39,342 bases of DNA. Origin: Gammaproteobacteria bacterium (GTDB lineage Bacteria; Pseudomonadota; Gammaproteobacteria; DRLM01). Below, piece by piece: positions 799-26,413 of the stretch (positions are counted from its first letter, which is position 1; every line of letters starts with the position of its first letter). Under the pieces are notes generated by a model. That model saw nothing but the letters and a program-made list of their open reading frames with translations. It did not search any database and was not told the origin of the DNA. Where the stretch lies: contig JAHFRV010000029.1 of NCBI GenBank assembly GCA_023266095.1, positions 1-39,342 on the forward strand. The letters are read 5' to 3'. Made by a program: the position numbers and the translations under genes.

Positions 799-1203
799 AT
801 GAGACACTATGAAGTGGTGTTTCTGGTTCATCCTGACCAGAGCGACCAAGTCCCCGCCATGATCGAGCGCTATCGCGCCGCCATCACCGCCGACGGCGGT
901 GCCGTCCACCGTTTGGAAGACTGGGGCCGCCGTCAGCTGGCTTACCCCATCAACAAGATCCACAAGGCCCACTACGTGTTGATGAACATCGAGTGCAGCC
1001 AAGCCGTGATCGACGAACTGGCCTCCGCCTTCCGTTTCAACGACGCCGTGATCCGCAATATGATCATGCGCCGTGACGAGGCCGTCACCGAGCCTTCCCC
1101 GCTGATTAAGTCGAAAGACGATCGCGAAGGTGGCCGTCCTCCCCGCGAATTTTCCGAGCGGCGTGACGCCGACCTCGGCGATAGCGACGGGGCCGACGCC
1201 TAA
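799..1203 (+). CDS. rpsF: 30S ribosomal protein S6
   Basis: A 134-residue S6 that binds S18 on the platform of the small subunit. The start [18 protein letters not shown] is the family N-terminus, and GAGAGGAG lies just upstream, so the longer open frame to the left is not used. The segments [18 protein letters not shown] and [15 protein letters not shown] are typical. The C-terminal tail after about residue 100 is long, charged and ends DSDGADA rather than in the Glu-Glu that RimK extends in E. coli. First gene of an rpsF-rpsR-DUF2232-rplI group. Confidence 0.97.
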
Positions 1204-21537: not shown

Positions 21538-21747
21538 ATGCCAAAGACAGCAAACGATGAGCGACTCGTTGCCGTAGATGACTTTGCCGACGGCGAGACT
21601 TTGACCAATGACACTCGTGAAACCGGCGGTAGCCAAAAGTCCGCTCCGGTGGCGCGCTACGTGTCGAAATGGCGAAACATCGAACAATACTGGGAAGAAA
21701 AACGTTTGCGCGAACAACTCAAGGATGAGCTGCTCGACGATGCGTAA
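21538..21747 (+). CDS. small acidic protein, PA3496-like
   Basis: A 69-residue protein with a strong ribosome binding site (AAGGAG seven to eight bases before the ATG). The first half is Asp/Glu/Thr-rich and probably disordered; the second half, VSKWRNIEQYWEEKRLREQL to the end KDELLDDA, is a charged helix. The R-x-IE-x-x-x-EEKRL-x-x-x-L pattern resembles the small PA3496 family of gammaproteobacteria, which has no settled function. It points toward the RLAN/RimK gene (convergent, 114 bases apart). The strong initiation site supports a real gene. Confidence 0.75.
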   Translation: MPKTANDERLVAVDDFADGETLTNDTRETGGSQKSAPVARYVSKWRNIEQYWEEKRLREQLKDELLDDA

Positions 21748-21861: not shown

Positions 21862-23352
21862 TCAAGGCAGACCCGCCGCCACATAACCCATCGGCAACTC
21901 CACGCGGCGCACGAATTCCTCGATGATGGTTTGATACAACAGGTCACCGAGACAGGCATCTTCGACGCCGGTATCCAAATTGGGATTGTCGTTCACCTCG
22001 ATGACATATAACTGGTCGCCGAACTGCTTCATGTCGACACCGTAGAAGCCATTGCCGATCGCGTTGGCGGCTTTCAGCGCCACCTCGACGATTTTGCCCG
22101 GTACTTGCTCGATGGGCCAGGATTTGAAGGCGCCTTGGGTAAAATTGCCCGACGAATCATGCTTGACGATCTGCCAGTGTTTGGGCGGCATGAAGTACTG
22201 ACAGGCGAATAAGGGCTTGCGATTGAGGATGCCGATGCGCCAATCGAATTCGGTATAGACGAATTCCTGAACCAGGATCAAATCGGACTCTTTGAACAGC
22301 CGTTCGGCGATGTCGTTGGCGTCTTTTTCGTTTTCGGCCTTGAACACTCCCCTCGAGAAAGAGCCATCGGGAATCTTGATCACCAGAGGATAAGGCATCT
22401 GTCCTTCCAGCGGTTTGGTGTTGCCCTTGCGCAGGATCACCGTCTTGGGCACCGGGATATTGTGGGCCTTCATCACCTCGGTGAGAAACACTTTATTGGT
22501 GCATTTGAGTATCGAATCCGGATCGTCTATCACTACCATGCCTTCACTCTCGGCCTTCTTGGCGAAGTGATAGGTGTAATGATCGACCTGGGTGGTCTCG
22601 CGGATGAACAGCGCGTCATATTCGGCGAGTTTGGCGTAATCCTTCTTCTCGATCAGATCCACGTCGACGTTGAGACGTTTGCCGATCTTGATGAATTTCT
22701 TCAGGGCCGCGACATTGGAAGGCGGCAGCTTCTCGTTGGGATTGTGCAGTATCGCCAGATCACAGCGCGACATCTTGGAGGCACGCGGCATCCGCCAGCG
22801 CCGCCCGAGGTGGGCACTCAAGGTATTTACGAAAAAGGGCTGCTGCTCCGTGGTGATATTGCTGAGCGCCAACGGCTTGATCGACGCTATCTGCCAGGTA
22901 TCGCGCAACTTCAGTTCCACTTTCAGCAAGGGACAGGGGAATTGATCGAAAATCTGCCGAGCCACGTCCTGCAAATAAGCGAATTCGCCCTGGCCGAAAA
23001 AGATGTGGAACTGGAAAGTGCCGCCCGCCGGCTGATCCTCGCGCTTGCGCAAGATTTTTTGCACCAGTTCATCGAGGTCTTCGAGATTGAGGCTGTACAC
23101 CGCCTTACTGCTCAAATCGCTCAAGGTCTTGACGCTGGGAATCACCCGATGCCAGCGCGCTTCGGCCAGCAGCGAACAGTAATAGCCCAAACTCAGGTAG
23201 CGGTAGCTGCGGCAGAGATTGATGACTTTTTCGTGCTTGGACTTGAGATACTCGGGATTGGCGATGTATTCCTTGGCCTCGATGATATTGGCCTCGGGAA
23301 AATGCGGCTCCCAATCTTTACGGTTTTCTACGACGATGGTATGCGTTGACAT
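21862..23352 (-). CDS. RLAN-domain RimK-like ATP-grasp ligase
   Basis: A 496-residue protein in two parts. Residues about 1-150 are the RLAN domain (RimK-like ATP-grasp N-terminal domain; IVVENRKDWEPHFPEANII, SLGYYCSLLAEARWHRVIPS). Residues about 195-490 are an ATP-grasp amide ligase: nucleotide-binding VIKIPDGSFSRGVF (324-337), QEFVYTEFDWRIGIL (362-376), YGVDMKQ (437-443) and the Mg-binding VIEVNDNPNLDTGVED (450-465). ATP-grasp ligases of this group join an amino acid or peptide to a carboxylate through an acyl phosphate. The GNAT-C39 gene lies 30 bases upstream on the same strand, so the two form an operon. The substrate is not known; S6 glutamylation is less likely than for true RimK. Confidence 0.92.
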   Translation of the reverse strand: MSTHTIVVENRKDWEPHFPEANIIEAKEYIANPEYLKSKHEKVINLCRSYRYLSLGYYCSLLAEARWHRVIPSVKTLSDLSSKAVYSLNLEDLDELVQKILRKREDQPAGGTFQFHIFFGQGEFAYLQDVARQIFDQFPCPLLKVELKLRDTWQIASIKPLALSNITTEQQPFFVNTLSAHLGRRWRMPRASKMSRCDLAILHNPNEKLPPSNVAALKKFIKIGKRLNVDVDLIEKKDYAKLAEYDALFIRETTQVDHYTYHFAKKAESEGMVVIDDPDSILKCTNKVFLTEVMKAHNIPVPKTVILRKGNTKPLEGQMPYPLVIKIPDGSFSRGVFKAENEKDANDIAERLFKESDLILVQEFVYTEFDWRIGILNRKPLFACQYFMPPKHWQIVKHDSSGNFTQGAFKSWPIEQVPGKIVEVALKAANAIGNGFYGVDMKQFGDQLYVIEVNDNPNLDTGVEDACLGDLLYQTIIEEFVRRVELPMGYVAAGLP

Positions 23353-23382
23353 TGGATTTTCAGTCTATCCTCGCTGCTTTTA

Positions 23383-24558
23383 TTAGCGACTGCCTGCGCG
23401 GGTCGGTTTCTGTCCCAGCGCCGCCCGTGTCGGTGTTAATTTTTCCAGCGCGCCTTTTGGTGACTCGACCCGCCGTTTGAGTATCAGCACGGCCTTCTGC
23501 CCAGCCTTGCCGTAGCGGGCCATGCGTTCGAAATCTTTGCGCAGGATGGGCATATCCACACAATCGGTAATGGTCTTGCCGACCTCTTTATCCACGAAGG
23601 GATCGTGCACATAGATGAAACGTTCGTCGAAACCGGTGACCACCACCCAGTGGGGAAATTTCTCGTGGTAAATGCGATAAGAACTGATCAGGACGATGGG
23701 AATGCCGCCCTGTTCGAATTGCTGTTGCAAGGCATCCACCCCGATCACGCCGTAATGGATGTTAACCGGCACGCTGCGTAACTCGTTGACGAAGTCCTCC
23801 TGCACCAGCCGCATCACTTCTTTCTTTTCCAGACTGCGCACCGAGTCGACGAACAAGGCACGTTCGTCGTTGACGAACACCTCGACGTCGAAGCCGCGAT
23901 GATAGGCGGACAAGGCCAGGCCGTAAGGCCCGCAACCGCCATGACCCGAGGTCATGAAAATGGTGGTGGACTCGCGCCAAATGCGCAGCTCCAACATGCG
24001 GTCCAATACGATGCTGGGATCGAGTGCCTTCATCGCCATCAGCAAGGTGGACGGGCCGCAGGTAAAATCCAGGGTCTGTTCATAAAATGGCACCCGCGCC
24101 ATGGCCGGCGCCAGCTCCTGGGTCAGCGACTTCTCGAAGCGCACCGCGTCCATGTGATCTTCGTAATAATCGGTGTAGAGGCCGAATTCACGATAGCCGT
24201 GGCGTTTGAACAAGCCGATCGACGCCACATTGTCCTTACGAATCTCCAGGCGCAGCGTGACGCAGTCGTTGCGGGTGGCTTCGTCTTCGGAGGCGCGCAC
24301 CAGGGCGCCGGCCACACCCAGCCGCTGAAAATCAGGGTCCACCGCCAGCGAATACAAACGGGCCAGGGAGGTGCCGGTATTGAACAACAGCATGGAATAA
24401 CCGCGCATCACGCCGTTTTCCACGTCAACCACGGTTTCCGCGTTACCTTTGGTCAACAGGTAACGGAAATTCCGCCTCGACAGACGGTCGGTGTCGAAAC
24501 AACGGTTCTCGATCCGGACCAGGTCCTCGAGATCATCCAGTGTGGCGCGGCGTATCAT
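23383..24558 (-). CDS. GNAT acetyltransferase fused to C39-like cysteine peptidase
   Basis: A 391-residue fusion. The start MIRRATLDDLEDLVRIENRC is the natural GNAT N-terminus; the frame extends 53 codons upstream without support. The GNAT domain (1-140) has the acetyl-CoA loop VDPDFQRLGVAGALVRAS (73-90) and NVASIGLFKRHGYREFGLY. The C39-like domain (about 155-365) shows QTLDFTCGPSTLLMAM with candidate nucleophile C167, FPHWVVVTGF with H303, and YVHDPF with D319. The same fusion beside an RLAN/RimK gene recurs in other proteobacteria as far as I recall, which implies a shared pathway. C39 peptidases usually cut after Gly-Gly leaders; no such peptide gene is visible here. No membrane or export signal. 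Confidence 0.9.
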   Translation of the reverse strand: MIRRATLDDLEDLVRIENRCFDTDRLSRRNFRYLLTKGNAETVVDVENGVMRGYSMLLFNTGTSLARLYSLAVDPDFQRLGVAGALVRASEDEATRNDCVTLRLEIRKDNVASIGLFKRHGYREFGLYTDYYEDHMDAVRFEKSLTQELAPAMARVPFYEQTLDFTCGPSTLLMAMKALDPSIVLDRMLELRIWRESTTIFMTSGHGGCGPYGLALSAYHRGFDVEVFVNDERALFVDSVRSLEKKEVMRLVQEDFVNELRSVPVNIHYGVIGVDALQQQFEQGGIPIVLISSYRIYHEKFPHWVVVTGFDERFIYVHDPFVDKEVGKTITDCVDMPILRKDFERMARYGKAGQKAVLILKRRVESPKGALEKLTPTRAALGQKPTRAGSR

Positions 24559-24715
24559 GCTGCCTATCCTATCACGGGGCGGGCAGGTACTAAAAAGGCA
24601 AATGGCCTGATTCCGGGCGCCGTCGAAGCGCGCCAACCGCCGCGCCGCGACGATAAAGCCATTAAGTTCTTGCAACAACAGCGGTACACTACCGACGGGC
24701 CGAGGGAGGACCGCC

Positions 24716-26413
24716 ATGCCGGATATACGCTTTGATCAGTATTACCGTTACGATGCGCTCACAGCGCTGTTGCACACGCTCGCCGCCCGGTACCCGGCCC
24801 TGATGCGGCTCACCAGCATCGGCAAAAGCCATGAAGGCCGCGAGATATGGCTGGCCACCCTCACCGCCTACGCCCACGGTGACGATAGCGAGAAACCGGC
24901 TTTCTGGGTAGACGGTAATATTCACGCCCCGGAGCTGGCAGGTTCCACCGCCTGTCTCTATTTCATACACCAGCTGCTCAGTGGCTACGGTCATGACCCG
25001 GACATCAGCCGTTGTCTGGACAGCCGGGTCTTTTATATCTGTCCGCGCGTCAACCCCGACGGCGCGGAATGGGCATTGGCTGAACCGTCCCGCATCATCC
25101 GTTCCAGCACCCGGCCCTATCCTTATGCCGAAGAGCCGGTGTGCGGGCTGATCCGCGAAGACATCGACGGTGACGGCCGGGTGTTGAGCATGCGCATCGC
25201 CGACCCCGACGGCCCGTGGAAAATATCGCCGCACGACCCCCGCCTGCTGGTGCCTCGCGAACCGACCGAAATCGGCGGCGAATATTACCGGCTATTGCCG
25301 GAAGGCCGGCTCGAAAATTACGACGGCCACTTGATCCACGTCTCGCCGCCGGCCCAAGGCTTGGACCTCAATCGCAACTTCCCGGCTAAATGGCGCGAAG
25401 AGTCGCAACAAACCGGTGCCGGCCCCTTTCCCGCCTCCGAGCCGGAGGTGCAGAACCTCGTGCGCTTCATCGCCGCTCATTCCAACATTTGCGGCGGCGT
25501 GGCCTTTCATTGTTACAGCGGCGTGTTGCTGCGGCCCTTGTCTTATCAGAGCGATGACGACCTGCCCGCCGAAGACCTGTGGGTCTACCGCACGATCGGT
25601 GCTCAAGGCACAGCACTCACCGGCTATCCCGCTGCGTCGGCCTATCACGAATTCCGTTATCACCCCAAAGAAATCATCACCGGCGCCTTGGACGATTGGT
25701 TGTACGAACAACAGGGCGTGTTCGCCTGGACCGTAGAAATCTGGAGCCCGCAACGCCAAGCCGGCATCGGCGAATACCGCTATATTGATTGGTACCGCGA
25801 TCACCCCGTCGAAGACGATTTGAAATTATTGAAGTGGAACGATGAGGTACTGAACGGCGCAGGCTTCGTCCCTTGGTATCCTGTCGATCATCCGCAACTC
25901 GGCCGCGTCGAATTGGGCGGCTGGGATCCGCTGTTCACCTTTTGGAACCCACCGCCGGCTTTACTGGAGCAGGAGATCGCCCGCTTTCCGAAATGGCTGG
26001 TGTGGCATGCCCTCCTCTCCCCGCGCCTGGAGTGGCAGGACGTCAGCGCCACCGCCCTCGGCGGCGACAGTTATCTGGTCCGCGCAGTGGTGCGCAACAG
26101 CGGCTGGCTACCGAGCTACGTCACCAAGCTCGCCGCCGAAAAAAAACTGGTGCGCGGCGTGATTTGCGAACTGGAATTACCCGACGGCGCATGCCTGCTG
26201 CAAGGCGAACGGCGGGTGGAGATCGGGCAACTGGAAGGCCGCGCCCACAAACCTTCCTCCACCTTCGGCTGGGCGGGCAGTGTGAGCGATCCAAGCCTCC
26301 ACCGCGCCAAAGCCGAGTGGGTGGTGCAGGCGCCGACAGGTGCGGTGATTACATTACGCGCGCGTCACCCCCGCGCCGGCGCACTCAGCGCCGAGATCAT
26401 CCTGCGACCTTAA
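24716..26413 (+). CDS. M14-family zinc carboxypeptidase, probably cytoplasmic
   Basis: A 565-residue protein with GAGGGAGGACCGCC before the ATG. The N-terminal M14 domain holds zinc ligands H70 and E73 in GNIHAPELAGS and H265 in AFHCYSG, RVNPDGAE (111-118), substrate-carboxylate-binding LDLNRNF (216-222) and catalytic E341 in AWTVEIWS. An insertion, EDIDGDGRVLSMRIADPDG (148-166), has a calcium-loop look. A C-terminal beta-rich domain follows (about residues 430-565). There is no signal peptide, unlike digestive carboxypeptidases, so it may act on an internal peptide. It diverges from the GNAT-C39 gene with 157 bases between, which permits shared control. Confidence 0.9.
   Translation: MPDIRFDQYYRYDALTALLHTLAARYPALMRLTSIGKSHEGREIWLATLTAYAHGDDSEKPAFWVDGNIHAPELAGSTACLYFIHQLLSGYGHDPDISRCLDSRVFYICPRVNPDGAEWALAEPSRIIRSSTRPYPYAEEPVCGLIREDIDGDGRVLSMRIADPDGPWKISPHDPRLLVPREPTEIGGEYYRLLPEGRLENYDGHLIHVSPPAQGLDLNRNFPAKWREESQQTGAGPFPASEPEVQNLVRFIAAHSNICGGVAFHCYSGVLLRPLSYQSDDDLPAEDLWVYRTIGAQGTALTGYPAASAYHEFRYHPKEIITGALDDWLYEQQGVFAWTVEIWSPQRQAGIGEYRYIDWYRDHPVEDDLKLLKWNDEVLNGAGFVPWYPVDHPQLGRVELGGWDPLFTFWNPPPALLEQEIARFPKWLVWHALLSPRLEWQDVSATALGGDSYLVRAVVRNSGWLPSYVTKLAAEKKLVRGVICELELPDGACLLQGERRVEIGQLEGRAHKPSSTFGWAGSVSDPSLHRAKAEWVVQAPTGAVITLRARHPRAGALSAEIILRP

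Follow-up and report, generated by a model that had tools for sequence, protein, structure and literature searches.

The stretch of DNA analysed here (the window) is a contig of 39,342 bases (JAHFRV010000029.1) of the 3.33-Mb assembly GCA_023266095.1 from a Gammaproteobacteria bacterium (DRLM01). On its minus strand a gene for a RimI-like GNAT acetyltransferase fused to a papain-like DUF3335 domain is followed after 30 bases by a gene for an RLAN-RimK ligase, and a gene for an M14 carboxypeptidase runs divergently from them, 157 bases off (Table 1). Both spacings depend on the start of the GNAT-DUF3335 gene at ATG 24558 (MIRRATL...); the open frame continues to 24717, and relatives begin at the same Met-Ile-Arg. 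The three genes, their gaps and the intactness of their catalytic motifs, as claimed in an earlier note on this DNA, were thus confirmed by coordinates, Pfam matches and invariant residues. A promoter scan of the divergent gap returned no sigma-70-like match. The small ORF of 69 residues, convergent with the ligase gene, was kept only within the family of the window organism and was rejected as a general substrate for this reason. The locus was also rejected as a defence system, as PADLOC gave no match.

Table 1. Features of the window, and related loci in other genomes (handles beginning with L; variants as described in the text)
Feature	Position	Strand	Basis or remark
RLAN-RimK ATP-grasp amidoligase	21862-23352	-	Pfam, invariant residues, predicted model
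RimI-like GNAT fused to DUF3335 papain-like domain	23383-24558	-	First gene of pair; Pfam, NCBIfam, predicted model
Divergent intergenic region, 157 bases	24559-24715		Between GNAT-DUF3335 and M14; sequence, promoter scan
M14 zinc carboxypeptidase, cytoplasmic (leaderless)	24716-26413	+	Pfam, PDB carboxypeptidase T alignment, 81-sequence conservation
Small ORF, 69 aa, acidic tail	21538-21747	+	Convergent with RLAN-RimK ligase gene
Variant B loci	L076:7880-12031; also L074, L078, L081, L089, L090, L092, L098, L100, L106, L109		FGase missing in L074
Variant C loci	L087:8346-10560; L053:10459-12661; L059:6036-8335; L108:8472-10696		
Variant E loci	L054:7315-8472; also L068, L077, L079, L086, L096, L101, L102		
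Variant F loci	L069:10577-11371; also L103, L108, L111, L087, L198		

The ligase is a fusion of RLAN (PF14401, 5.5e-52; 175.9 bits against a curated cut-off of 25; residues 26-176) with an ATP-grasp domain (RimK, PF08443, 6.9e-11), its RimK/ArgX-like part beginning at about residue 198. The ATP/Mg residues K326, D440, E452, N454 and N456 were invariant in 31/31 relatives. The predicted model (pLDDT 83.5) had D-Ala-D-Ala ligase, ArgX/LysX and RimK as its nearest structures, and the listed matches of the whole model were ATP-grasp ligases of about 270-320 residues. With the RimK S6-glutamate ligase model NF007764 the protein scored 31 bits against a cut-off of 331, and a separate full RimK elsewhere in the genome (C16) scored 502 bits. 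Since this full RimK is present, modification of ribosomal protein S6, which the earlier note had named as one of the findings that would overturn its proposal, is unlikely to be the role of the RLAN enzyme. Besides the RLAN ligase, the window also holds the gene for S6 (799-1203, plus strand), while the true RimK is encoded on a different contig. Both members of one other lineage have a RimK gene downstream of the RLAN pair, at a distance of about 5 kb (L069:5659-6618, L198:2-721), and that of L069 scores above the S6-ligase cut-off.

The GNAT-DUF3335 protein joins an acetyltransferase domain (PF00583, 2.6e-14; residues 1-150, RimI/Ard1-like), DUF3335 (PF11814, 2.4e-86) and a Cys-His-Asp set in one chain. 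Its papain-type residues C167 and H303 were found in 31/31 relatives and D319 in 30/31. The peptidase half had earlier been taken for C39, and it has to be renamed, the papain-like part being DUF3335 and not the transporter-linked leader peptidase. By profile, sequence and predicted structure the GNAT half is closest to the N-terminal acetyltransferases RimI and archaeal Ard1, which were also its best matches in the search with the predicted model (pLDDT 90). The list from that search was taken up by matches to the GNAT half, and comparison of the DUF3335 domain with PDB sequences gave no significant relative.

The M14 protein (PF00246, 7.6e-53) carries the motifs HAPE and DLNRNF, and its H70, E73, R220, H265 and E341, including an HxxE...H zinc site, were present in 81/81 sequences. 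By alignment H70, E73 and H265 are the putative zinc ligands and E341 the putative catalytic residue, R220 being the matching arginine; zinc site, Arg, catalytic Glu and Asp-Asp-Trp segment all align with carboxypeptidases T and B. In contrast to these enzymes, the window's M14 is without a signal or pro-peptide and is extended at its C-terminus by some 150 residues or more. D326 aligned at the Asp-Asp-Trp specificity segment of carboxypeptidase T (PDB) and was kept in 80/81 sequences; we take this to be the position of D255 of carboxypeptidase B, the residue which selects Lys/Arg. Carboxypeptidase T itself has broad specificity. Judged from the alignment, the enzyme may prefer substrates whose C-terminal residue is basic and not acidic. 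In the same 81 sequences no residue was fixed in those M14 proteins that are adjacent to the pair but not in the others.

We then consider how regularly these genes occur together. In a sample of 303 gammaproteobacterial genomes, the window's own included, RLAN was found in 66 (roughly a fifth) and full-length DUF3335 in 45 (roughly a seventh). RLAN was present in 44 of the 45 DUF3335 genomes and adjacent in 41, so that the association of the two exceeds chance and the ligase/GNAT-peptidase pairing of the earlier note stands. Separate contigs carried the two genes in three genomes (G060 and, close to contig ends, G199 and G208), while G154 (L121) has a rare solo GNAT-DUF3335 gene, with a contig end nearby and no RLAN match in the genome. 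A close M14 orthologue (58-82% identical to that of the window) was rare, being found in six of the 303 genomes, and all six carry RLAN and DUF3335. The M14 gene, whose inclusion had been a new suggestion, was beside the pair in five of these six, and in the sixth, G156, on another contig than the pair. Within this sample the close M14 orthologue was restricted to pair-bearing genomes, which represent four families (4/4), for which a simple draw of families gives a chance of about 0.0015. From a further sample of 368 genomes, which largely overlaps the first, came one more adjacent case (G349, congeneric with G101) and a distant M14 (G383, 35% identical) that has neither gene of the pair within some 1.5 kb of it. 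In the window's own order/family four genomes have M14, and the two without it also gave no RLAN in a small search that itself contained no positive, although RLAN is detected with this model in other genomes. The adjacency was observed directly in four lineages (three families and one unplaced lineage), between which all three proteins are 54-65% identical; their outer flanks differ, and clustering of the flanking genes revealed no other shared flanking gene.

Outside the pair the M14 family has a wider distribution. Among 84,980 species genomes scanned, 217 relatives turned up, and the 80 best came mostly from Chloroflexota, Armatimonadota, Cyanobacteria, Betaproteobacteria and Trueperaceae; among the relatives examined, only gammaproteobacterial ones had RLAN and DUF3335 alongside. 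RLAN was absent in 38 of 43 carrier genomes tested, nearly all of these outside Gammaproteobacteria, and the other five were four gammaproteobacteria with RLAN and one Truepera with a weak RLAN match. A full-length DUF3335 match was found in none of the 38 non-gammaproteobacterial carriers tested. Scattered across phyla (L125-L201), M14 genes of about 60% identity stand without a fixed neighbour, a distribution that suggests horizontal spread of a general peptidase. In a quick tree the eight adjacent M14 proteins formed one side of a branch (SH-aLRT 99), with the non-adjacent G156 copy outside. Pairwise identities of M14 and RLAN correlated at 0.97 overall, a value carried by close pairs, and at -0.05 among 21 deep pairs, so that the overall value does not demonstrate co-descent. 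The RLAN tree lacked resolution in its backbone and is compatible with one origin of the M14 adjacency; it and the M14 tree did not contradict each other in a comparison limited to the shallower branches. Since most of the tested carriers (38 of 43) are without RLAN and the adjacent copies have no residue that sets them apart, the M14 enzyme seems to have been recruited and not to be dedicated to the pair.

RLAN genes of other genomes have other neighbours (variants B to F). In variant B the order is C39-like gene, RLAN, GCS2 ligase and FGase-family hydrolase; its RLAN proteins form one clade of 13 (support 100/100), GCS2 and the stand-alone C39 each occurring in nine families and FGase in seven. 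By analogy variant B looks like a two-ligase peptide pathway with a GshA/GshB-like logic. In variant C, found in four families that belong to one supported clade of 13, a DUF2817 gene overlaps the GNAT-DUF3335 gene by 3, 7, 25 and 75 bases, lengths that are approximate as they were computed from open-frame starts; the overlap suggests translational coupling. Variant D has a GNAT alone before RLAN. Variant E, which occurs in eight families, has an acetylornithine deacetylase gene (ArgE, above the NCBIfam cut-off in both cases tested) divergent to GNAT-DUF3335, and in three of these families ArgA follows beyond ArgE; this gene order may simply be inherited, or it may connect the locus with N-acetyl-amino acids. 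In variant F, seen in six genomes, a DUF155/RMD1 gene directly follows the RLAN or the DUF3335 gene. DUF2817 has the motifs HGVE (HxxE) and D-x-NRNF, similar to HAPE and DLNRNF of M14, and its probable kinship with M14 rests on these, on a weak AstE/AspA Pfam match and on weak PDB matches (4oko, E 0.006; MpaA 5hxd, E 0.3). An hhalign comparison of DUF2817 with M14 from shallow alignments gave E 0.0014 and probability 17 over 22 fortuitous-looking columns. M14, DUF2817/AspA, FGase and M20 (ArgE) probably share one broad zinc-exopeptidase fold. That hydrolases of this kind turn up repeatedly next to RLAN is the strongest independent argument for counting M14 with the pair, as the earlier note had suggested.

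Combined together, we tentatively favour, at somewhat less than an even chance, a non-ribosomal pathway in the cytoplasm for the synthesis and turnover of a short peptide metabolite with an N-terminal cap, M14 being the putative turnover enzyme. In an ATP-dependent step the RLAN-RimK enzyme would add an amino acid at the carboxylate of a short peptide or of an acyl-amino acid. Capping of the amino end would fall to the RimI-like GNAT and cleavage or transfer of an amide bond to the papain-like domain (DUF3335), and M14 would take off the C-terminal residue, perhaps a basic one, and so recycle the product; we infer this substrate, the order of the steps, the direction of the papain-like reaction and the specificity of M14 from what was directly observed, namely gene arrangement, domains, intact active sites and recurrent co-localisation. 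Among the small ORFs within 1.5 kb of the pair none was conserved across families and no precursor-peptide gene could be recognised, and a ribosomal peptide is for this reason unlikely. This lack of a precursor, the small-molecule enzyme families of variant B and the analogy with the NAGGN operon (see below) are our reasons for favouring an N-capped short peptide, and the context leans to such a peptide rather than to a protein tag. Against M14 in the pathway stand its position off the pair's contig in G156 and the many carriers without RLAN or full-length DUF3335; against a small peptide stands the fact that the closest characterised relatives of the ligase include the protein modifiers RimK and ArgX/LysX.

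An alternative, in our estimate only a little less probable, is that the ligase and GNAT-DUF3335 form one system, next to which M14, an independent general peptidase, was inserted once and retained. The pair-free carriers in other phyla agree with this, as do the single branch of adjacent M14 proteins, for which one insertion suffices, their want of a residue signature and the divergent orientation, in which no operon is shared. However, adjacency has been kept while the proteins diverged and the outer flanks changed, all checked gammaproteobacterial carriers of a closer M14 have the pair, and in other genomes a gene of the M14-like DUF2817 family runs into GNAT-DUF3335. The reading of the earlier note is supported in part: its inclusion of M14 holds up, as shown by adjacency in at least four diverged lineages and by the joint absence of M14 and RLAN from two family members, and the RLAN-free carriers count against it. 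The earlier note would have given it up if M14 were adjacent in a single lineage with a phylogeny not following the pair; half of this was found, as the adjacency is confined to Gammaproteobacteria, needs only one origin and belongs to a family that is pair-free in other phyla, but the M14 tree does not contradict that of the ligase.

Unlikely, in our estimate, is a protein-tagging system, in which the ligase would extend a protein C-terminus in the manner of RimK and the tubulin ligases, the papain-like domain and M14 would remove the extension, and the GNAT would act on the same protein or tag. RimK and ArgX/LysX, nearest to the ligase, do act on protein C-termini, RimI, nearest to the GNAT, is a ribosomal protein acetylase, a true RimK lies downstream of the pair in the two genomes of one lineage, and RimB strips the glutamates added by RimK (PMC12239564). 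But S6 is already served by its own RimK in this genome, D326 of M14 suggests basic and not acidic C-termini, and GCS2 and FGase, the partners in the sister variant, are small-molecule enzyme families. A RiPP system, with leader removal by the papain-like domain, as the earlier note had imagined, and cyclisation of the core by the ligase, is highly improbable: ATP-grasp and C39-type domains do occur in graspetide and bacteriocin systems, but near the pair no small ORF is kept across families, which also led us to reject both a RiPP precursor and a LysW-like carrier protein, and no transporter gene is conserved beside it.

Returning to the N-capped peptide pathway, the hydrolase kept beside RLAN/DUF3335 in each lineage narrows its chemistry to a removable amide or acyl group and no ribosomal precursor, and this makes the product searchable by comparative metabolomics. 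A wider and rather improbable conjecture is that a family of related, exchangeable cassettes for non-ribosomal peptides with an N-terminal cap is built around RLAN ligases, each lineage having recruited its own zinc hydrolase (M14, DUF2817, FGase, perhaps ArgE) and its own enzyme for capping or for the first ligation (GNAT or GCS2); the window would be the M14 version, and its product a new intracellular class of acyl-peptides with a basic C-terminus. Should the zinc hydrolases prove able to replace one another as partners, an entire class of non-ribosomal acyl-peptides would still have to be discovered.

Among known systems, the RLAN-RimK and GNAT-DUF3335 neighbourhood, reportedly described by Iyer et al. 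2009 (doi 10.1039/b917682a), shares its domains (PF14401, PF11814) with the window, where the divergent M14 is the added element. The pairing is thus known in kind, as the earlier note had said: the Pfam families exist, and a role in peptide ligation or acylation is proposed for GNAT fused to DUF3335 in a passage of PMC10318531 that cites Iyer et al. For the arrangement with M14 we found no description in the literature searched, which omits most older work. ArgX/LysX of the LysW system are among the nearest solved structures to the ligase half, but pairs of the window type have no conserved small carrier gene beside them. RimK-RimB (RimABK) likewise places a RimK-like ligase and a peptidase in one neighbourhood, RimB removing the glutamates that RimK adds; in contrast, the window's ligase has RLAN and scores far below the RimK cut-off, and the retropepsin RimB is replaced by other folds. 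In the NAGGN operon (PA3459-PA3461) the amidotransferase AsnO, the GNAT-ligase Ngg, which both acetylates and ligates, and a glutamyl aminopeptidase yield an N-acetyl dipeptide osmolyte (PMC8070244), and so it unites N-acetylation, peptide-bond ligation and an exopeptidase, as predicted here. A complete NAGGN synthetase was rejected for the window, with 31.9 bits for TIGR03103 against a cut-off of 569 and no full NAGGN synthetase in the genome. The NAGGN operon combines GNAT and ligase in one protein and includes AsnO, whereas in the window the fusion partner of the GNAT is DUF3335, that of the ligase is RLAN, and the peptidase belongs to M14. Of the experimentally known arrangements of a GNAT, a ligase and an exopeptidase, the NAGGN operon is the nearest.
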